From positions 6,317,135 through 6,381,134 of the forward strand of contig NC_030385.2 in NCBI RefSeq assembly GCF_001625215.2: 64,000 nucleotides of DNA, written 5' to 3'. A program made the position numbers and the translations under genes. Shown piece after piece: positions 1,543 to 64,000 of this stretch. The notes beneath the pieces were generated by a model, which was not told where the DNA came from, ran no database searches, and saw only the letters and a program-made list of their open reading frames with translations. Source of the DNA: Daucus carota subsp. sativus. Lineage: Eukaryota > Streptophyta > Magnoliopsida > Apiales > Apiaceae. Within the stretch, counting starts at the first letter, position 1; each line of letters begins with the position of its first letter.

Positions 1543-4199
1543 TCAAACAGATGCGATGCCAGATGTGGCAGAAGAGGAAGGTTGCAAAGCCCGAATTCTG
1601 ACATCATATCTTTTGTAGACTGAAATTTCACTTCCTGATGCTGAATTTAAACCATCAGATACAATTGGATAAGTTGATGCATTGTCATCATAAGAAACCC
1701 CAATATAGTTTCCACACTTTCGACACATAAGTTTGGTTTTGCGCTGAAACAAACCCCACGACTGTTTGGATATGAAGTAAGGAATACACTGAAATTTTTC
1801 TAACTGAGTAAATCTGCTCTCATCTATATGAACAAACGAGATGATTCCTTTCTTTATTGATTTTCCATATTTTGATCCAATTGCAGATGTATTGCGAGAG
1901 GATGAACTCAAATTCAGATCAAATCCACAAGAGCCACAGCTAAATCACGATAAAGATAATACAGTTAAGGTCTTAAAAATGAAATATTTAAATATCTATC
2001 AGATAGTATGATAAAAAAGGAAAACTTTATAACTAATTACATATATTATAAAATAGAAATTTAAATTAGCATAAAGCACGGATGACATAGTTCCTGCCAC
2101 CAATGCAGAACAAAGAATTATTACTGTATATTAATATGTATATATTTGTGTTATTATATAGGATTAGAATTAATTTTGTAAGGAATGTAACTATATATAA
2201 TATAAATAGTTTATTAGGAATGTTCCATATATATAAATTATGGTAGGAATATAATCAGGATATGTTTGCTTCATTAGTAAAGATTTTTCTTGGTGACTAA
2301 GTTTATGATGTACTCCTATACATGAAGATATGATATTTTATAATTAATAAATATTTGATTTTTATTGAATTGAGAACTGTTTCTTGTTATGGGTTGTGAT
2401 TCCAGCTAATTCTTATTGTCAGCATTTGAGAAATCCTTGAGGTAGTAGTTATCTGTGGTTGGATCACCTTGGGACTTCAAGGGTTTACTGTACATTTTTT
2501 ATAATATATTCAACATAGGTTTTCGACCAGGATTTTTATACCAATATTTGACCTGAACACCAGTATGTGACCCGAACCGACTACATATTTCGACTAGTCG
2601 ACTGGGCGGAGGACTAAGTGACACTGCTCAGTCAACTGCATGCCTGACAAATGCCTAGTAGACAACTTGAGTCAACCTCCAAGTATTGTCGTGACTAGTC
2701 GAGCGACATTAAAACCTTGATTTCTTCCCTACATACATTTGCCTATTTTATTCGTCCACTATTTCTTATTCACAAATTTCATCAACTTTCTCAACAGACT
2801 ATTATTGATCTCCAATTTTTATGGTTCTTACAAATCTTATAAAAACACTTTTCCATTTCCATGAGAGTTTACCATTGATGTTAATTAGCTTCATGTTAAC
2901 TATTATAAGATAACACAAAGCACTATCAACCTAAGTCCCACCTCCCAAATTTTAAATGTCTCTCATAAATCCAATTTTCTGAGCAGCCTGATCAACTGAC
3001 AGAGTATTTTAAAGCGGAAGAACTATATTGCAAATACGCCGTATGAATAACCTAGAACAATACGGTTAACAATTAGCATACTATTTCATTGTATTACCGT
3101 GAAATATACTAGCAGATGAGAAAACATATAACCAGTATCACAAAAAATTATCTTTCATAACAGTAATATGTAGAAAACCAATCACCTTGAAGATACAGTG
3201 ATTCAAAAAAAATATCAACACATTTTAAAATTATTATTATAAGGGTGGTCAATTAATTTGTCACTTGAATATGGTTTTTTAAGATTTAGGTCACTTAAAT
3301 AAAATATCCAACATCCAGGTCATTTATGTTGTAAGATACTTCATCGAAGTCCTTCTATTAATCAAAATGAAAAACGATGTCGAGGGGCATCTTATTTGAA
3401 AGAAACAAGAATATAATCATGGCATAAAATAATTACAAAAAATTATTTACGCCCTGCCCCGCTCTCTCCTTTACCCCTTCCTCATCTATCTCTTTCTATA
3501 TAAATAGATATACAACTTCTAAGAATTTTGATTTCTTCATTTTTTTTATAGTTTGCTTTTACAGATAGACCAAATCATATCCCACTCATCTTCGAATATT
3601 GTTTTGACACTCGGATTCCCCCGACTCTGCGGGAAGATAAAACATTTATCCAACCCACAACCAAGCAATCATCATCATTGTATAATCAATTAATAAGATT
3701 TAATAAGATTGGACCTTTACAAATAAATTAGAGGTCCGTTTCTTCCGGTTTATAATATTCACGATTAATATTTCTTTGAGCTATAAAGTAACTTTAAGAT
3801 AGAAAAACTCAAACATGTTTGTTTGTTCAGGTGACTTAAAGTTAAAAGCTGACTTATAATTTTGAATAAAATTTCTCTAATCCATTACTTAGTTTTTGCA
3901 TTTGTAATTCGACTTGATACAAAATTAATAGCCTGAGTATCTAAATTTCTAGTAACATACCCCAAAACAAACAATTAACTTACAATCTTACGCATATACA
4001 CATCACAGAATTTGACTGAATTGATATTGATACCGTTAACAAAGAGAGAGACGGGAATTAAAACAGGTATAATTGATATTGGAGAGAGGGAGAGAGAGAG
4101 ATATATATATAGTTAGAGAGAGAGAAAGAGAGACCTGTAAGTAACGTCTCTGTGAGAAGAAGCGAAGCTATGAGTGTGGTGATAGTCGTTCCTTTCCAT
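1543..4199 (-). CDS. Plant zinc-ribbon protein of unknown function (At4g08330-like), 2 exons
   Basis: Coding exons are 4199-4135 and 1939-1543 on the minus strand. Exon 1 starts at ATG 4199 and ends in phase 2 at CAG|GTCTCT. Exon 2 begins after GATTTAG|. The joined frame is exactly 154 codons (153 aa). Two metal-binding-like Cys pairs are visible: CGSCGFDLNL near residue 23 and CRKCGNYIG near residue 93. Between them lies a conserved-looking block (SKYGKSIKKGIISF, FISKQSWGLF), and the C-terminus has YDVRIRALQPSS. From memory this matches the plant family annotated as 'uncharacterized protein At4g08330, chloroplastic'; its function is not known to me. The 2.2-kb intron and exon 1 are duplicated about 11.5 kb away. 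The internal stops and phases fit only the minus strand. Confidence 0.85.
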
Positions 4200-5388: not shown

Positions 5389-5889
5389 ACAAAGCTGATA
5401 TCATATATGAATAATGATATTTTAGATGTCATTATCTCATCTTTATCCTAAGAAGCTCAAATACACAAGAAATAAGACCTTGAATTGAAGGGCAATTACT
5501 AAATGGAAGCCATGAATAGAAAATGCACAGTAGACATACAAGATAAATCAAATGTTCATAAACACACAAAATACTAAATGAAGACGAACTTGTCTACAGA
5601 ACAGAAAAGTCATAATCACTTACTCTGCTTTGGACATTTTTTGTTCACGTTTGGCTTGGATCAGGGCCTAGGCTCACTTTTCATCTATCGCAAAATCAAA
5701 TTAGTTGTGATGCAGCAAAACATGGATAACAATATACAGAGAGCATCCCCTCTTTCCGGACAAAAAATGTGTTGTAAACTGCAAACAACATCTTGCAGAA
5801 AAACCTTGTAATAACATCAATGTATCGACTCTAATATCACCAACTTCTAACCCATGCTTGTTAACATCAAGCAAACAAACGGATCATGA

Positions 5890-12035: not shown

Positions 12036-12908
12036 TTATTGCTGCTTTAGTTTACCCATCAAATATAAGTAGTTCCTCTGAAAGTCTATAACTGCCCAAA
12101 CCAAGTGCCAAAACTGAATCTCGGGCCAAAGCACTAAGGGAGAGTACAAAAGAGTAGATGAACTCTGCCACAAGAGAAAATTGCTTAACCGAGTCTCTCC
12201 CGAAGTACGAACTATGATGTCAGGATCAGGTGTAACATACATATGTTTCTCAATATCTTTTGAATTAATAAAACACTCTTTATGTTCCTTGTCGTTACTG
12301 TTTGGTCCTAACAAGCCATATGGACCAGAACCAGTCGCTTCCAATGCACTTAATTCTTCCTTTTTTTCTTCACAGGATTCTTGAACGGAATGCAATATCT
12401 CATCGGTTGAAGTGTATGCGACACAAATTGTTAGAACTGCTTTAGAATTGTCAGCCGTAGCAACCATAGCCCTCTCAGCGGCCAACCTAACAGGTCTGCT
12501 CAGAAGTTGAAGATTTCCTACAAACCGAACCTTAACCCCATATTGGTTTACCAAGCTCTCTTGTTTAGTAAGCCCTTCAATTTTCTCCAGCATGAGATCC
12601 ATAACCGACTGAACTTCTTCCGGCCTTCTATTAAAGTTATCGATGCTGAAGGCAAAGATAGTTACATACTTGACACGAAACTCATAACAATATCTGAGCA
12701 TTGACATAAGAGCAGAGAAACCAACCCTATGGCCGGCTCCTTCCATCAATTTATTTTTTTTAGAAAACCTTCGATTCCCGTCCATAATGAACGCAATGTG
12801 ACTCGGAATAGGACCTCTAGAAAGAACCATAAAGATGCATTTCCTCAAAAAAGCTACAAAATAAGTAAACCATGTTGTCTGACTACTACTACTACTCTGA
12901 CTTTCCAT
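12036..12908 (-). CDS. cis-Prenyltransferase (dehydrodolichyl diphosphate synthase)
   Basis: An uninterrupted 290-aa frame starts at ATG 12908. The family condenses isopentenyl diphosphate onto farnesyl or similar diphosphates to make dolichol-type polyprenyl diphosphates, usually at the ER. Motifs in order are a hydrophobic N-terminal segment (TWFTYFVAFLRKCIFMVL), FIMDGNRRFSKK with the catalytic Asp, GHRVGF, TIFAFSIDNFNRRPEEV, VRFVGNL, CVAYTSTDEI, DIIVRTSGETRLSNFLLWQ, and LWPEIQFWHLVWAVIDFQRNY. All motifs of a catalytic subunit are present, so it is not an NgBR-type partner. Upstream, TGTACAG| near 12939 suggests a 5' UTR intron. The frame stays open upstream of 12908, but without an ATG. 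The whole coding region lies in one exon, as in some Arabidopsis homologues. Confidence 0.95.
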   Translation of the reverse strand: MESQSSSSSQTTWFTYFVAFLRKCIFMVLSRGPIPSHIAFIMDGNRRFSKKNKLMEGAGHRVGFSALMSMLRYCYEFRVKYVTIFAFSIDNFNRRPEEVQSVMDLMLEKIEGLTKQESLVNQYGVKVRFVGNLQLLSRPVRLAAERAMVATADNSKAVLTICVAYTSTDEILHSVQESCEEKKEELSALEATGSGPYGLLGPNSNDKEHKECFINSKDIEKHMYVTPDPDIIVRTSGETRLSNFLLWQSSSTLLYSPLVLWPEIQFWHLVWAVIDFQRNYLYLMGKLKQQ

Positions 12909-13019
12909 CCTAATTAACTTGTACAAGCTCAAACACTCCTGTACATGAAACAATAAGAGCTTCAGGATAAAGAAATGCAAGAAAATAGCTGCGAGTGGTG
13001 ATTTGAAAGCCAATTACTA

Positions 13020-15856: not shown

Positions 15857-18185
15857 TGAGTCGAGCCGAGCCGAGCCGAATCAGGTCGTATATGATTTGT
15901 TAAGAGAATAGTTAACTCAGCTCGAGCTTGGATCGAGCCAAAAATATTGTTTGACGATCGACTCATTAATGAATAATTTTGTTCACGAACGGCTCGCGAA
16001 TCGCTCACGAACATGTCTCACGAGCTTTTGTTCACGAACCGCTCCTTAACTTACGGTCACGAACATGTCTCACGAATTTTTGCTCACCAACCACTCATTA
16101 ATTTTGTTCATGAGCTTGTTTAATAAATTTTCTTAACGAGCTAGCTTATGCTCATAAATTTATTTACGAACTTGTTTGTTATTTAATTTAATTAAAAAAT
16201 AAATTAAAATTCTAACAATATCTTAATCTATACTCTAAGGAATCATAAATTCATAATAAATCATCCATTAATAAAAACTCCCACATCCTTAATCCAAAAT
16301 AAACAAAAAAAAAACACAAAGTTCGACATAAATAAATTAAAACAGAACATAATTGTTTGATAAATATTGGATTAATTATCAAACTCATCACTGAAGTGGA
16401 CAAATGGTATCAACTTCATCACTGATCTCCACGGGGTCTCAAATTACTCACTAAACTCGCTTAATGGTATCAAACTCATCACTGCCGTTAAAAAAAGTAA
16501 CGGAGGTTAGACGGAGTGACAGATTGGCGGTTGACGTGGCACGTTAATAAAAAAGACTGAAGAAAAACAAATGAAAGAAAATAAAAAAAAGTAGAAAATA
16601 GAAATGCCACATAATTTAAAGTCTATATATATGAAAATAAAGTATGCAAACTTTTTAATAAATTGATTTTAGGATACAATTATCTAAATAAACGTATCGA
16701 ACTAAATTTTAATATATAATTAACTAAAGAATTAAGATTAACTTTTATGTTTTTTATTAGATTATAATTATTTTTGAATAATATTGAAATGTTTTCTCTT
16801 TTAATAAATTTTAATTATTTTTTTGCCAAAATTCACATAATTAAAATTTATTAAAGGAGAAAACATTTCAATATTATTTAATTATAATCTAATAAAAAAC
16901 ATAAAAGTTAATCTTAATTGTTTAGTTAATTATATATTAAAAGTTAGTTCGATACGTTTATTTAGATAATTATATCCTAAAATTAATTTAATAAAAATTT
17001 TGCATACTTTATTTCCATATAAACTTCAAATTATGTGACATTTCTATTTTCTACTTTTTTTTATTTTCTTTCGTTTGTTTTTCTTCGGTCTTTTTTATTA
17101 ATGTACCACGTCAACCGCCAATCTGTCTCTCCGGCTAACATCCGTTATTTTTTTTAACGGCAGTGATGAGTTTGATACCATTAAGCGAGTTTAGTGAGCA
17201 ACTTGAGACCCCGTGGAGATCAGTGATGAAGTTGATACCATTTATCCACTTCAATGATGAGTTTGATAATTAACCCGATAAATATTAGCTGAAAATCCAG
17301 CCAAGTTCACGAACCATGTTCACGGGCCGAGTTTACAAACTACGGTCACGAGCCAAGTTCACGAACTCATAATTTGAACTTGTTCACGAACTATCGAGTC
17401 GAACTCTACTGTGCTCAAGTTCAGCTCGTTTATAAAGCGAAGCTTAAAATTGTGCTCAAGATCGACTCGTTTATGATTCGAGCCGAGCTCGAACCAAGCT
17501 TTTTTCGAACCGAACATCAAGTGGTTATCGAGCGTATCAACTCATTTACAGCCCTACTCGAGCTTGAGCTTGGATCGAGCCAAAATTTTGTTTGACGATC
17601 GACTCATTAATGAATAACTTTGTTCGCGAACCGCTCACGAACATGTCTCACGAGCTTTTGTTCACGAACCGCTCCTTAAATTACGCTCACGAACATGTCT
17701 CACGAATTTTTGCTCACCAACCGCTCATTAATTTTGTTCACGAGCTTGTTTAATAAATTTTCCAACGTGCTAGCTTATGCTCATAAATTTATTTACGAAC
17801 TTGTTTGTTATTTAATTTAATTAAAAAATAAATTAAAATTCTAACACTGTTTTAATTTATGCTCTGAGGAATCATAAATTCATTAATAACTACGCTCAAG
17901 AGCCATGTTCACGAGCCAAGTTTACGAGCTGAGTTCACGAACCATGTTCACGAGCTAGTTCACGAGCCAAGTTCACGAACTCATAATTCGAACTTGTTCA
18001 CAAACTATCGAGTTGAACTCTACTGTGCTCAAGTTCAGCTCGTTTATAAAACGAACCTTAAAATTGTGCTCAAGATCGACTCGTTTATGAACCGAACCAA
18101 GCTCGAACTGAGTTTTTTTCGAACCGAACACCGAGCGGTTATCGAGCGTATCAACTCATTTACAGCTCTACTTGTTTGTAGAAAT
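15857..18185. repeat. Head-to-tail pair of GAGC/CGAGC-rich repeat units, interrupted by a MITE
   Basis: Two units have the same internal order: CGAGCTTGGATCGAGCCAAA, TTGACGATCGACTCATTAAT, CACGAACATGTCTCACGA, an AT-rich core, TTCACGAACTCATAATT, TGCTCAAGTTCAGCTCGTTT, and GGTTATCGAGCGTATCAACT. Unit 1 spans about 15857-17560 and contains the element at 16369-17276. Unit 2 spans about 17566-18185. Such CGAGCC/ACGAAC repeats resemble non-autonomous hAT-like plant repeats. There is no coding capacity. Confidence 0.75.
16369..17276. mobile_element. Foldback Mutator-like MITE, 908 bp, with 10-bp target duplication
   Basis: The element is almost one long inverted repeat: the left arm from GGATTAATTATCAAACTCAT pairs with the right arm ending ATGAGTTTGATAATTAACCC, and matching continues inward for about 450 bp per arm (for example CCACGGGGTCTCAA and TTGAGACCCCGTGG). 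It is flanked on both sides by GATAAATATT (16359-16368 and 17277-17286). A 9-11-bp target duplication with long terminal inverted repeats starting in G points to the Mutator superfamily. No transposase is present. Confidence 0.88.
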
Positions 18186-18792: not shown

Positions 18793-19992
18793 CTATATAA
18801 AGAACACCTGATGCCTTTCTGCTTTACCTATTATATCGTAAATAGTGGCCTGACATGACTCTGTGTTGCATACTCTTAACATCGTCTCCAGACCTTTCTT
18901 CTTATAGTATATTTCCGTATTTTGTTCCATTTCATCGCACTTCAGATTCTCGTCCTCAAGGTCCTTCTCCACTCCTCTCTTTATGATGTCGAGCCCATAG
19001 TGATGTAACAGTTTAATCACTTTCAGGACTTGAAACCGGAGAGTTGGCTTTTGTTGCCCAATCAGATCTTCTTTTTCAATCACTTCTAACAATTCATCGA
19101 ACAATGTTGACATTTTCATTGCGTCCTTATAGTTGTTCCATTGTTGATAGGCATCTTCTGGCTCCGTTGTTATTCTTTTTTGATTTATGTCGTCAATCAA
19201 TTGACGATCATCATATTCTGCTGGCTTGAAAGAGACGGTTGATTTTATACTATCTCGAGTATGCTCAATATGAATTCCAGCCTCGTTTGATTGATCCTGT
19301 GCAGATTCTTGTCGATACTCTTCTTTTTTAGTTTGCACCACTTGAGAGACCTTATTAGATCTTGGACAGTCTCGTATATACTCGATTCCTTGCAGATTTT
19401 CATCTTCATCTTCATTCACTCTGACCAGTTGATTGTGCTTACTAGATCTTTGAGAGCCTCGAATATCCCCTATCCCTTGCTCAGATTCATCTTCCTCCCT
19501 TTGCACCCCTTGAGAGTGCTTACTAGAGATTTGAGAATATTGAACATGCTCGATCCCTTGCGGATTCTCATAATGCAATACAGATCTCGGACTATATGGA
19601 ATAGGCTCCACATTTGGTTGCGAGTGCTTAGTAGATCTTTCACTCTCTCGGACATGCTCGATATCCTGAGGACTTTCATCTGCATTATTGGTTTGAGAGT
19701 GCTTAGTAGAAATGAGATAAGGTCGGATATGCTCGATCCCTTGCTTATCTCCATCATCTTCGTATACTTGCTCAGAACGCATACCGTATCTCATCCTGGT
19801 CTGGATGTTTTTGGTTCCTAACTTATACTTGTATCTTTCCAAACGCTTGGATTGCTTGTGCAAATAATCAGAACCTGTTTCTGGAGATGTGTAGTAATAG
19901 TCTCTGGACATATCCCTCGGGGGAGTATTGGATAGAATTGAGCGCACCAGCTGAGACCATGCCTCACTAGCAATTGCTCCGTCCAAAACCAT
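18793..19992 (-). CDS. Unrecognised protein with about six degenerate internal repeats
   Basis: An open frame of 399 codons from ATG 19992 lies just after a strong acceptor (TTGTTGTTGCAG|), so 5' exons may exist and the true start is uncertain. N-terminal residues 1-85 are neutral to basic. A repeat region follows at about residues 84-255, with cores such as QGIEHIRPYLISTKHSQ, QDIEHVRESERSTKHSQ, QGIEHVQYSQISSKHSQ, QGIGDIRGSQRSSKHNQ and QGIEYIRDCPRSNKVSQ, plus a decayed IHIEHTRDSIKS. Repeat starts are 25-40 residues apart, separated by acidic linkers (EDESE, NEDEDE). The C-terminal 110 residues are predicted helical and charged (LFDELLEVIEKEDLIG, FQVLKVIKLLHHYGLDIIKR). The frame is long, repeated and free of stops, so it looks like a real gene. 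I recognise no family. There is no signal peptide or membrane segment. Confidence 0.65.
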   Translation of the reverse strand: MVLDGAIASEAWSQLVRSILSNTPPRDMSRDYYYTSPETGSDYLHKQSKRLERYKYKLGTKNIQTRMRYGMRSEQVYEDDGDKQGIEHIRPYLISTKHSQTNNADESPQDIEHVRESERSTKHSQPNVEPIPYSPRSVLHYENPQGIEHVQYSQISSKHSQGVQREEDESEQGIGDIRGSQRSSKHNQLVRVNEDEDENLQGIEYIRDCPRSNKVSQVVQTKKEEYRQESAQDQSNEAGIHIEHTRDSIKSTVSFKPAEYDDRQLIDDINQKRITTEPEDAYQQWNNYKDAMKMSTLFDELLEVIEKEDLIGQQKPTLRFQVLKVIKLLHHYGLDIIKRGVEKDLEDENLKCDEMEQNTEIYYKKKGLETMLRVCNTESCQATIYDIIGKAERHQVFFI

Positions 19993-20034
19993 CTGCAACA
20001 ACAAGATTTTTGACAAATATGACTTATAGTCTTA

Positions 20035-20140
20035 CAAATGAATATCAGTTCTAAGAATTTCTCGGATGAGCCAGGGTCGAATCCAGGACCTGAGACGACA
20101 GAGAATAAACTCTTCACCGCTTGAGTTATCCAACCGTGCT
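20035..20140 (-). mobile_element. tRNA-derived SINE, copy 1 (old)
   Basis: Read on the minus strand it begins GCACGGTTGGATAACTCAAG (A-box-like region) and contains GGATTCGACCCTGGCTCA (B-box-like). It aligns with the plus-strand copy at 22073. It has decayed and has no clean A tail. It lies just upstream of the last exon of the repeat-protein gene, within its presumed intron or 5' flank. Confidence 0.7.
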
Positions 20141-20880
20141 CTTTGCAACAACAAGATTAATTGAGTGATTGTAGTGGAAGGTTGGAGTTGAACTAAACCC
20201 CTTAAATAGATGTCATGGCTATTTGACTTTCACAAGAGTTTTAAGCATATGTTGTTAATCATGTATAAAATATTAACCTCAGCTCATTCATCGGGGTTTT
20301 TGTAAAAAAATTTCTAGTTGGATATGTAGAAAATTAGTTAATTTACAACCCTGTTGCAACTGATCCGCGTAGTATCCCCTCAAGTGGACAACAAGGGCGG
20401 CCAGAAACAATGTTCCTAGAAGGAGACTAATCTAATTATATTGCAGCTTCCAGAAATTTGAGTTTCAATTTGCTTAAAAACAATTACTTAGCAATTCTAA
20501 TTCAGACAGTTGACATATATTTTAACTTGAGGTCTTTAGAAAATCCACAAGTATGAGCCAAGCCAACATATATTTCAGGTATTTGATGAGAAAAGTTGAT
20601 ACAATATTCTAGTGATGCTTTTAACTTTTTCGAATCTTAATTTTAAGATTTTTACTTTATATTTTGTAATTAAATTCTTATACACACTCTCTATTGTTCT
20701 CTATTTTATATTGTGCTTTAGTGATGAAGGAGAGAATTTTTAATAATAAAATATTAAACATTTAGTGAGAACAAGGCACATTGTTGAAGTTAAAGTTAGT
20801 TAAATAAGACTTGAATTAATAGAACATAATTTTTATATTATATTTACAACTCCAACTAGGACAGGGTTGAACTTGTTCTA
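20141..20880. other. Intergenic, no supported feature
   Basis: AT-rich DNA with no coding frame, repeat array or clear element ends. It may contain upstream exons of the minus-strand repeat-protein gene, but no ATG-bearing exon with a usable donor could be placed. Confidence 0.35.
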
Positions 20881-22072: not shown

Positions 22073-22184
22073 AGCACGACTGGATAGCCCAAGTGGTGGG
22101 CTTATCCTCTGTTGTCCCGGGACACCCGGGTTCGACTCTGGCTCATTGTAAGGCATTTAAGCCTGCATTGTCAAAAAAAAAAAA
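22073..22184 (+). mobile_element. tRNA-derived SINE, copy 2, with A tail
   Basis: It begins GCACGACTGGATAGCCCAAG, has a B-box-like CGGGTTCGACTCTGGCTC, and ends GCATTGTC followed by 12 A. The A-box and B-box spacing is tRNA-like. The same order of motifs occurs inverted at 20140-20035. The clean A tail suggests a younger insertion. No clear target duplication could be read. Confidence 0.8.
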
Positions 22185-36982: not shown

Positions 36983-39900
36983 TCATAATCCTTGATGATT
37001 TTCAAGTTCTACTCTACTACTACTCGAAGATAACTTCCCTAAACAATTTGTGCTATTACCAGAGCTAGCATTATTAAGTGAAGCACCCGATGAACTTGAC
37101 GATGATACAGATGCCAGTGACACTTTGTGTTTACCATTGGCTAGAGGAGTCCAAGTTTCTGCAGATAGTTCTGAACTTTGATCATGCTTTGGCACAACTT
37201 TGTTGTTGAAATGAGGCTTCAATGGCACTGCTCCAACTGCTGGAGGACTCTTAAATTCCCCCTCCGATAGTCCCAAGTACAATTGGGGTGTCAGTCAAGA
37301 AGTCTTCCAATGTTGGTAGAGACTTTAGTTGTCTCCCGAGAGATGCTATTGTTTTTTGACACTCTGCAAGTTTATCAGCAGCTGCAGCAACGTCTTCCTG
37401 CAATAGATATGCATCAGAACAATATTTTTTAACAATCATAAAAGATCACATTTGTGTGAACATGTAAACTTGCATCCACTTAAAAGTTTCAAAGAGAAAT
37501 ATTGTTTACATTGATTCTCTAATTGAGTGAATCATTAAGAAATAGAAATACCAAAATTCAAGGTCTCTAAAAAGTAAGAAGTTGTAAGATCTTTTTGTAT
37601 ACATTTAACTTTATTCCGCCTCTATATGTTGTAGTAATTAAAGAGTTAATTGCAAAACACATCCTTTTATTTCGGATCAATTACATATTGTTACCAATAC
37701 TTTAGATGATTGCACAATGAATCTCTTAACATGTTTTGCCCCTGCATTTTGCATCCTTATGGCCACTTCTGTCTATTTTGACTTATCATAGTGTAAATTA
37801 AAAGAGTGAAATAGACTTAAGAATTAACTAAAATGACATTTTAAAGGTTCCTAAGCCTGTTTAACTCTTTTAATTCAACAAAGCAATAGGTCAAAATAGA
37901 CAAAGATGGGCCAAAAGGGTCCAACATGTGGCGCTAAAATATGTTAAGGGATGCAATATGCACTTAACTAAAGTTTAGACAATAAAGTGCAGTTGACCCA
38001 AAGTAAAAGGATGCGTTTTGCAATTAACTCTTATTTAAATTCTTATTACAGTTTTTCCCTAAAATACAGCCATTGTTCTATAAAAGCACTAAAATGAGGC
38101 AATATGCATATATGCAAACAAACTATATATTTAGTGCAACGCATGCATAACTTACCTGTTTTGCTGTTAATTCACCATCTAAATTTGTAGTCTGATAAAC
38201 CTCAGCTTCCTGGGTTCTTATAGTTGGTTCGTTCTCCATTTCTTGACACTTGGCTACCAATTCTGCAGATAAAGTTTGCTCTTTTTCTGCATCCAACTCA
38301 GATGTACAGAGCTCCTTTGACATAGTACGTGTCTCGACTTCCATACCAACCAGTTCACACTCAAGTAAGTTCTTTGACTCGTTAAACATAGTAAGCTCCT
38401 TCTGCAGCTCTTTTAGCTTGTTTTCAGTTATTATTAGCTGAGTGTTTGCAGCTTCAACAGATTGTGTACTCACAATCAAGGCATTCTCTAGTTCTGCTTT
38501 CTCGGCTTCTATCTTCTCCAGCTTATCATTCAATACACCAACACGCTGACTCATTGTATCTAGTTCAGCCCTCAATGTGTTTTCTATATCAGTTGCTCGA
38601 CAAGCAATACAATTTTTCTCAGCTTCTATCTGCTGCAAGTTAGTTTCCAATTCAGTAACACGTTGACTGGTGGCTTTTAGTTCAGCTCTCAAAGAGCTCT
38701 CGCTGGTATTTGCTTGACAAGCAACAAATTCTGATCCAATCGCACAGATTTTATTCTTGGCCTCGGGAAGTGCAGCAAGTCGTTCCATTTCTAAAAAATC
38801 ATCCATGATATCCATGTCAAAAGAACAGGATGTCTGATTTTTAGTTGAAGTACTTTCAGACATGGCCCATGAGTCAGAGCGTTTAAGTTCACCGCCATAA
38901 GCATCTATTCCTTTCATCTTGAAAATATCGACCTCAAAATTTTTTATCTGTTCACTACTATCAGATTGACTATCTGCCAGAGACTCAACAGACAAAGAAG
39001 ATGCAGCCGGGGACTTGTGTTCATTAACCAGTGATGATTTCCTTAATTCAGATTGAAGCCTGCGGCACTCAGCCTCAAGCTTTGCCACCTTCTTTATGTT
39101 CTCTAATTGCTGCTTACTAGCCGTCTCTGCTGCCTGTATGCTCAAGTCCCTTTCAATGGTCCTAATATCCAACTCTTGAGATAAATATGTAAGTTCCAGC
39201 TTTAGCACTGCATTTTCCTTCACTATTGACTCCAGCCTAATATGAACACCAAGATCAGTATGAACAGGAATTTTAGCTTTAAGTTCCTCTGTCTGGTTCC
39301 GGAGACCAAGAAGCTCACTTTCAAGACTGACTCTGGTGGTTTCCCACTCATTGGTTTTTTCTGCTAAAGCTTCATTTATTCTCTGTTCCTGCTCTTCTCT
39401 TACTTGTCTCAACTGCCTGACACATTCCTTGAGAGCACCATCAAGATGGTTCACTTTAACTTCAAGACCTAAGTTCTTCTGAACTGCTGCCTCGAGTTGT
39501 TGCTTCAGGATTGCCACCTCGTTTTCTGCCTTTTCCCAGCCTAAGTGGAACATCGAGATAAAATTAACACATTTCCAGAAAGTAAAACAGAATACTAGTC
39601 TAAGTGAATGTAGCCAAACTTCATCAAAAAGTCACTAGTTCTTTATTCATTTCATTCTCCAAAATTGATCATGTAGCATGTCATAGAACAATTCAGAGTA
39701 ACTACAGACAATATAAAATTACTGGAGTAAAACTTGAACAATTTTATGGTGTGGCGGTGACATATAATTGGATATTATAATTACCCATGATAACTGATAA
39801 GATATTAACAACCCTGTAAGAGGGTAATCATACAAGCTAGTTCTGTCAGAACTAGGCAATTAGAAAAACTGACCTGCAATAGCTTCATCTGCAACTTTAG

Positions 39901-42154: not shown

Positions 42155-42550
42155 ATTATTTTTTTAAACAAGACCCTTCATATAACTCTTTCGAATTCTA
42201 ACATGTTCTATATCAATACAAACACGAATAATTACATAATTTTTTCTAACTCTAATCCGTTACACGACAAATATCTTTTTTTCATACATATGAATTTATA
42301 CGAAATATGAAAAATATAATTTAAAATCAATTGAATAATAAATCATCCCATATTAATAACAAAAATAATTTGTCAAAAAAAAATAACAAAGAAATATTTT
42401 TAAATAGATAATAAATTGTAAAAACTAAATTTTCGTGAGAAAATGTAATCCATTGGTTAATATAATTTAATTAAAATTCAATTCACTAATATTAAAATAC
42501 TAATAAAATGATGTTAAAATTTAAATTATAAAAAACAAATCACAAATTAT

Positions 42551-62216: not shown

Positions 62217-63377
62217 TCTGTGCGCGATTTTAGGCCCGTTTTGCCCGTTTTTGATCCGTTTGAAGGCCCGTTCGCTGGGGAAGTTAAAGAAAGGCTTGGG
62301 GGGACTCAAAGCATAACCTAGGAAACATTCCAAGGAGCTTGTAATTCCATAGTTTTTACTTTTGTAATTCTTCGAAGTAGGCGTAACTTTGGATGCTTGT
62401 TCGGATTTGTTTCGAAACTCTTGTTTTACTCTTTTGATATTGTCTAGACTATTCAGTACCATGTTTATTCTTATTCCCATGATGATGAGAAGTTCGATTA
62501 TGAACTAATCATTATCGTGGGATTCTAGTAGATTTATATATGGATTTCAGTAGTTGATTTGCCTTAATTTATTGTGTGATGAATGTTTGATTTCCTCGTA
62601 TTGGTTGTGCTTATTCGTCTTGGATGTGTAGCTAACATCTTAGATTGTTTGTTAATCTTTATTGAATCGACAGTGGATATATTGATTTAGAACTTGCCAT
62701 GCAGCATAGGTTTATGTGTTCGATATGCATAATTGTGATGTGATTTTACACATCTTGCATCGCCCTATGTAATCTTGAAAGATAACTTGTTCTTCAACCG
62801 TTATGTTTTCAAATTCTATAGATATATAGGGTCTAAGCATAATTGGTGTCTGTTTACCTTCTATTTTAATTGTGGATGTGTAGCAGTATGGTGCATGTAT
62901 AACGACAATTAGCGTGTATCAGTATCGTGTTATCTGATTAGTTATCAACCATCACATATCGATAAGGCATAACTCTGAATGAAATATATGATGAAGTTAG
63001 AATCCCATGTTTTGTTCTCATTAGTAATTCGATTTTAATTCTCTTAGTTATAATTCGACTTAATTAGTTAATTTAGACAAAACCAACCAATTTGTTAATT
63101 GTCCGAACATTGAATAATAGCAATACATTGGTGCATAAGTGCATATTCTTGAATACACTAGTCTCTATGGGAACGAACTGAATTGAATTTCTATACTACT
63201 TGTGACCACGTACGCTTGCGTGATTTTGTGCGAACAAGTTTTTGGCGCCGCTGCCGGGGACTCGGTGTTATATTTTATTTTATGTGCTTGTCATCAGTGG
63301 TCGTTAAAGTTCATTGACTTGGATTCTTTTCTCACTTTAGTTCGTTTGTGTGTGTTTCAGGTACTTGAGTGACGTGT

Positions 63378-64000
63378 ATGCGAACACGTTCTCAGGCCCG
63401 TAAAGAAGCATTGGCAAAAGTAGAAACGATAGTGAGTACTACAATGGGTGATCAACCACCAGTTGTGAATGATACTAAGGCTCTTAAGACTTTCTCTGAG
63501 CCTAAAATTAATGACATTCAGTCGAGCATTGTCAGGCCAGCAATTCAGGCCACCACTTTCGAGATCAAACCGAGCAACATTCAGATGGTACAGAACTCAG
63601 TGCAGTTTGGGGGTTCTCCGACTGAGGATCCTAATATTAATATTCGGGACTTCATTAAGATCTGCGACACCTTCAAGTTCAATGGTGTTACTGATGATGC
63701 CATCGAATTGAAGCTATTCCCATTTTCTCTGAGAGATAAAGCAAAAGGATGGTTGCATTCTCTTCCTGCAGGATCTATTACTACATGGGAAGAGCTGGCT
63801 CAAATTTTTTTTACTAAGTTCTTCCCTATGGCCAAAACAGCTGCAATCAGGAATGCTATCACTCAATTCTCTCAGCTATCTGGTGAAACTTTATGTGAAG
63901 CTTAGTAACGTTGCAAGGAGAGCTTCGAAAGTGCCCACATCATGGGATGCCTGATTGGATGGTTATTAATTGCTTTTATAATGGCTTGGAACCTCAATCG
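63378..64000 (+). pseudogene. Disabled gypsy gag
   Basis: ATG 63378 opens MRTRSQARKEALAKVE, and the retrotransposon gag domain follows (GGSPTEDPNINIRDFIKICD, ELKLFPFSLRDKAKGWLHSL, TTWEELAQIFFTKFFP, SQLSGETLCEA). Two stops in a row (TAG TAA at 63903-63908) interrupt it. A one-base shift then restores readable gag (CPHHGMPDWMVINCFYNGLE) to the window edge. The copy cannot make full Gag. Confidence 0.92.

Follow-up and report, generated by a model that had tools for sequence, protein, structure and literature searches.

The window, a 64,000-nt stretch of the Daucus carota subsp. sativus genome, carries on its minus strand a complete single-exon open reading frame (18793..19992; 399 aa and a TAG stop) that, as judged by similarity of sequence, is a member of a repeat-protein family scattered through this genome. 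We tentatively read it, with a little less than even confidence, as a functional single-exon gene, probably of a lineage-restricted plant family, coding for a multivalent adaptor with a disordered middle. In the middle of the protein, a disordered strand would present a single type of partner with several Q-G-I-E-[HY]-[IV]-[RQ]-x3-[RK]-S motifs, as multivalent docking, and the N- and C-terminal domains would anchor the protein to something else, as in a cytosolic or nuclear adaptor.

The frame lies exactly where the first-pass annotation had placed it. Its stop-to-stop extent is 18793-20031 (minus strand), with the ATG at 19990-19992, and only about 6e-10 open frames as long as 399 codons are expected per window at the window's base composition, which rules out chance for its length. 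The codon usage is coding-like: the frame scores 0.154 bits/codon, and the strand's other two frames score -0.12 and -0.31, against a reference of five other genes of the window that themselves range from 0.106 to 0.289 when scored leave-one-out. Opposite the repeats there is an antisense open frame (19291-19821, plus strand, 176 aa), but codon scores are negative in all three antisense frames and it is regarded as the coding frame's shadow. Among simulated neutral copies at 0.2 or more substitutions per site the frame stayed open in none of 2,000, so it has not been kept open by luck; pairwise dS in the end domains of the three intact genes of the family is 0.59–1.23.

Queried with the protein, the whole genome (441,086,747 bases, 11 contigs) yielded 14 matches at seven loci, including the window gene itself. 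Two intact paralogues, on C7 (403 aa) and C8 (270 aa), have the same layout and align with it from end to end, with the ATG and stop codons lined up; where the paralogues have a last codon for tryptophan, the window gene has TAG and is thus one residue shorter at its end. A multi-exon model had been prompted by an acceptor-like TTGTTGTTGCAG 5' of the ATG and, towards the end of the gene, a donor-like GGTAAAG. It was rejected because the two paralogues start and stop at aligned codons while the sequences before their ATGs are unlike, and because the acceptor-like stretch belongs to the target duplication of a SINE-like insertion; an intron within the 5' leader is possible. At the C5 locus (27.16 Mb) the C-terminal domain is present twice with a stop in between, and an N-terminal domain upstream was not reported by tblastn at E up to 5, a trace being seen by eye alone. 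The C9 locus keeps the C-terminal domain, but the repeats upstream of its open frame contain an element-like insertion and a stop, and both of these loci look decayed. We take the inverted-end insertion within the C9 repeat array (L012, about 5630-5870, 5' of the open frame and on the same strand) to resemble a Stowaway-type MITE. Two further loci, on C7 at 24.1 Mb and on C4 at 40.6 Mb, have nothing but the repeats in common with the window gene. An origin of the paralogues by whole-genome duplication was considered and rejected, as no window gene except the gene itself has a counterpart within about 90 kb of the C7 copy (queried with window frames of at least 30 aa; E up to 1e-6). The other matches in those surroundings come from the SINE-like insertion, from a repeat of the window at 50.7-51.0 kb, and, over 25 residues, from 42330-42470.

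Both ends of the protein are conserved domains. The N-terminal domain (residues 1-75, 19768..19992, minus strand; E-A-W-S-x-L-V ... Y-K-L-G-T) is 60% and 55% identical to those of the C7 and C8 paralogues, respectively, and the basic character first ascribed to this region is correct but weak, with 13 lysines and arginines against 11 acidic residues among residues 1-80. The C-terminal domain (residues 285-395, 18808..19140, minus strand) is possibly helical, its helical moment being suggestive at most, and is found in six copies at five loci in all, the others being 33–58% identical to that of the window gene. Its tree does not fix the order of the three intact copies (support 0.18) and sets the C5 and C9 copies apart (0.98). 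By the crude measure of the charge-hydropathy line, both end parts of the window protein fall at or just on the disordered side. In Nei-Gojobori comparisons among the window, C7, and C8 genes, with columns bootstrapped, the three pairwise pN/pS values are 0.43, 0.48, and 0.41 for the N-terminal domain (upper limits at or below 0.74) and 0.40, 0.42, and 0.43 for the C-terminal domain (upper limits at or below 0.63), and both domains are under purifying selection, the clearest constraint in the protein. A likeness of the C-terminal domain to the helical TFIIS N-terminal domain (LW/MED26, PF08711), with a similar run of helices, was suspected by eye, but found no support in Pfam or PDB searches; PF08711 is absent from the Pfam matches of all six copies, each searched as a single sequence.

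Six repeat units lie between the end domains, all on the minus strand, at 19693..19743, 19618..19668, 19510..19560, 19429..19479, 19342..19392, and 19225..19275, the sixth being the most degenerate and having neither the S-K pair nor the S-Q pair. Their isoleucines are at residues 86, 111, 147, 174, 203, and 242, with spacings of 25, 36, 27, 29, and 39. The best 17-residue self-match of the protein scores 56 against a maximum of 42 across 500 shuffles, which rules out chance for the repeats, and 109 pairs score 30 or more, where no shuffle gives more than 11. The first-pass annotation's description of six degenerate copies 25–40 residues apart is thus borne out, and its statement that five cores keep Q, I, and S-K or N-K holds for copies 1–5 and fails for copy 6. 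It also held that the linkers differ, which is not wholly so: at the DNA level there is a 65-nt repeat family of five copies, 69–75% identical to the reference copy, and since the repeat of about 65 nt takes in, in register, the acidic end of the linker, core and linker have been duplicated together. Among copies 1–5 of the gene, synonymous sites have diverged about as much as the others (pS 0.335, pN 0.320; ratio 0.88, bootstrap 0.50–1.70), and the likeness of copies in one gene is therefore, taken alone, a poor sign of selection on the core; the six most conserved unit columns have pN 0.03 and pS 0.26, but were picked for being conserved.

Between the three intact paralogues, pN/pS for the whole repeat block is 0.88, 0.88, and 0.86 with bootstrap limits that include 1, and the block taken together is close to unconstrained. 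With the block divided according to where the units fall in the window gene, the Q-G-I-E-[HY]-[IV]-[RQ]-x3-[RK]-S columns give 0.49, 0.38, and 0.49 (limits 0.28–0.86, 0.16–0.87, and 0.21–1.02), the tail and x columns 1.17, 1.05, and 1.07, and the linkers 1.14, 1.28, and 1.19, the lower limits for tails and linkers (0.49–0.71) overlapping the motif-column intervals. The motif values come from 28–52 codons per comparison, in columns chosen after the positions kept by the family had been seen, which makes the test not an independent one, and constraint on the short motif between paralogues is indicated by these alignments. Selection had been proposed for a 17-residue core as a whole; the short GIEH-type part looks constrained (0.38–0.49), and the SKHSQ half evolves like the linkers (1.05–1.28). 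pS is 0.37–0.46 in the block, below that of the C-terminal domain (0.50–0.60) and not clearly lower than that of the N-terminal domain (0.41–0.54).

The main rival to an adaptor, unlikely in our judgement but to be taken seriously, sees in the repeat block a passive coding minisatellite that expands and contracts by slippage and unequal exchange, and places all function in the end domains. The block ratios of 0.86–0.88 with intervals that include 1, the near-equal divergence of the copies within the gene, and the different unit numbers of the paralogues are all as such a minisatellite would have them. It accounts poorly for the apparent constraint on the motif columns between paralogues, and for the persistence of the motif in proteins where no such end domains are seen.

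Those proteins lie elsewhere in the genome. The C4 protein has a membrane-span-like stretch, as judged by eye, and a search of the genome with it (E up to 0.1) gave 24 matches, with six further places on C3 at 55.60-55.64 Mb. This C3 cluster (L033-L036, about 55,602,162-55,641,046) has the repeat unit of the window gene at all six, of which two are weak (55,602,162 and 55,611,618; E about 0.016) and two contain stops (55,611,618 and 55,612,876-55,613,392); the four frames that were read, including that at 55,602,162, are 426–531 aa long and differ at their ends. The unit is therefore present at no fewer than 13 places on six contigs of this genome, and its number varies among paralogues. Across 43 units, taken from eight frames at the first seven loci, I and E are each kept in 41, S(+9) in 38, G in 35, and Q(-2) and R(+8) in 31 each, counts that are flattered since the units were chosen for having at least six of nine such positions. 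Spacing is mostly 25–29 residues, with exceptions. A weight matrix built from 25 units outside C3 gives a best score above the best of 200 shuffles in each of the four C3 frames, although these had been found by repeat similarity with the C4 protein. Over 12 frames it finds at least two units of 10 bits or more in 11, and none in the second C5 frame; some shuffle also exceeds 10 bits in six of the 12, and weak units are for that reason not to be counted.

The occurrence of the motif with other ends, the membrane-span-like one on C4 and several on C3, suggests that it is a portable docking module in this genome. In its broader form, which we consider possible but somewhat doubtful, the proposal is that these genes make up an unnamed plant superfamily whose common element is a portable motif, Q-G-[IM]-E-[HY]-[IV]-[RQ]-x3-[RK]-S, mostly repeated every 25–29 residues and carried by several unrelated ends, which would serve lineage-specific multivalent docking and would have spread by dispersed and tandem duplication. 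A disordered middle in the adaptor is consistent with the composition of the repeat block, which the charge-hydropathy line places on its disordered side in all three intact genes, with margins of -0.03 to -0.09 by this crude measure. What is measured is that the ends are constrained and that proteins with other ends share the motif; constraint on the motif is indicated, and the partner, location, and effect of the adaptor are inferred. Several observations weigh against it: the motif values come from small samples with overlapping intervals, the freely varying unit number and the two decayed-looking loci would also fit a dispensable family, the SINE-like insertion alters the 5' leader of the window gene, and the end parts of the window protein themselves lie at or just beyond the line towards disorder.

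That insertion is 135 bp long (20009..20143, minus strand), lies just 5' of the start codon, and is bracketed by an exact 15-bp target-site duplication, the gene-side copy of which (19994..20008) ends one base before the ATG and the far copy of which is at 20144..20158. Judged by eye, it has putative tRNA-like A and B boxes. Within the 303 kb of genome searched, similar stretches, whole or partial, occur once more in the window, as a second SINE-like fragment at 22073-22146 that is 74% identical over 77 positions, and three times in C7 loci. The insertion may have changed the leader or the splicing of the gene. It also raises the prospect, which we rate as improbable, that a once functional gene is now being lost in its wake: it adjoins the ATG, the terminal tryptophan codon of the paralogues has become a stop, and two sister loci look decayed. 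Yet the frame is fully open and its end domains are constrained, the loss of one terminal residue is mild, and neutral drift at 0.1 substitutions per site leaves the frame open in just seven of 2,000 simulations.

The neighbouring genes recognised by Pfam are plant genes and code for a cis-prenyltransferase (12036-12920, minus strand), a filament-like plant protein (38126-39553, minus strand), a methyltransferase (from 43573, plus strand), and an At4g08330-type protein (1546-1911, minus strand), and the window also contains retroelement gag fragments. A match to snoRNA snoR71 (63843-63948, minus strand) overlaps an open frame on the opposite strand with a Retrotrans_gag match (63369-63902). 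At 16360-17285 there is a near-perfect palindrome of 0.9 kb, a foldback-type element with three nested inverted-repeat pairs that are 92–95% complementary, flanked by direct repeats about 1.63 kb apart (15941-16254 and 17582-17883; 91–96% alike), and a further 213-nt direct repeat is found at 17346 and 17960.

With repeats and elements nearby, a dispersed family, and no gene synteny seen around the C7 copy, the gene could be supposed to code for a transposable-element protein or to have been captured by an element, but this is very improbable: Pfam finds no Gag, Pol, transposase, or other transposon model in the gene and its paralogues, the frame is not bracketed by repeats of at least 30 nt within 13-26 kb, and the C-terminal domain was found at five loci only, with the intact copies far apart in dS. 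We give similarly little credence to a precursor from which repeated signalling peptides are cut out of a non-secreted protein, in the manner of systemin; the regular units, mostly 25–29 residues apart with short conserved cores, have that appearance, but the window gene has neither a signal-like hydrophobic start nor processing sites noticed by eye, and it has two conserved end domains.

The first-pass annotation had also suggested that SKHSQ could be a site for ATM/ATR-type kinases, which is not supported, as the unit-end SQ is private to the window gene: Q ends 5 of 43 family units, all of them there. The protein has seven SQ against 2.7 expected, and C7 and C8 have two each against 1.9 and 1.1. 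At six positions compared, C7 has SQ at one (residue 13, outside the repeats) and C8 at none; for the five of these in repeats the count is 0/5 in both, with a gap in C8 at one, and a sixth repeat SQ spans an alignment gap. The conservation of an SQ cluster among relatives, by which membership of the ATM/ATR class is judged, is not seen here, where the relatives are those within one genome. For all its SQ excess, then, the protein is hardly to be taken for a DNA-damage SQ-cluster substrate, since SQ is kept neither at the listed repeat positions of the paralogues nor at unit ends elsewhere in the family, and four of the seven (residues 99, 124, 160, and 216) are one unit position multiplied by duplication, with two more (153 and 180) sharing another.

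No described family was found for the gene. For the window gene and the intact C7 and C8 paralogues, Pfam gave weak matches alone, and none near the cut-off; the six C-terminal domain copies matched five families by one member each (E 0.03–0.11), which we read as chance. Two repeat-only relatives come slightly over the cut-off, L013 with DUF3791 and L033 with Anticodon_2, but no single stretch passes and these are read as chance matches inflated by the repeats. The PDB gave no credible match by sequence and no near-match to the unit profile, the near-matches to other parts (CaM kinases, ankyrin, Adr-2-binding protein, and others; E 0.1 or worse) being set aside as chance. The initial view that no known family has this layout is in keeping with these searches, and the profile match to a retroelement or described family that had been named as speaking against it was not given by Pfam for the gene or its paralogues. 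Pattern matches in a viral collection (13) and in the GTDB collection (18) yielded no confirmed relative, as expected for a plant gene. Neither the strings QGIEHIR, QGIEYIQ, QGIEHV, and GIEHIRGC nor plant families with such a motif repeat were found in the literature searched, and the shorter strings QGMEYI, QGIEYI, GIEYIQ, and QGIEHI gave two matches, of which the one listed concerns IL-13 peptide prediction and no plant protein. These negative results do not prove novelty, as predicted but unnamed entries of this family very likely exist in plant protein databases.

The gene resembles lineage-specific (orphan) plant genes, as those of coriander are outlined (PMC11901849), in having a single exon and no recognised domain, and differs from those outlined there in belonging to a multi-locus family with measured constraint, its lineage restriction being presumed.

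If the adaptor reading is correct, one genome would have a set of proteins, at no fewer than 13 places over six contigs, with a constrained 12-residue motif in common and no catalogued domain. It would offer a compact case in which to ask how different proteins acquire a repeated short motif, with a negative control built in, as the SKHSQ tail and the linkers drift where the motif does not.

Intrinsically disordered proteins with tandem short linear motifs are the general kind to which such an adaptor would belong and are among the closest known systems. The likeness lies in a short conserved motif, variable linkers and copy number, and a composition on the disordered side; the difference is that the motif of the window gene is common to proteins with different ends within one genome.
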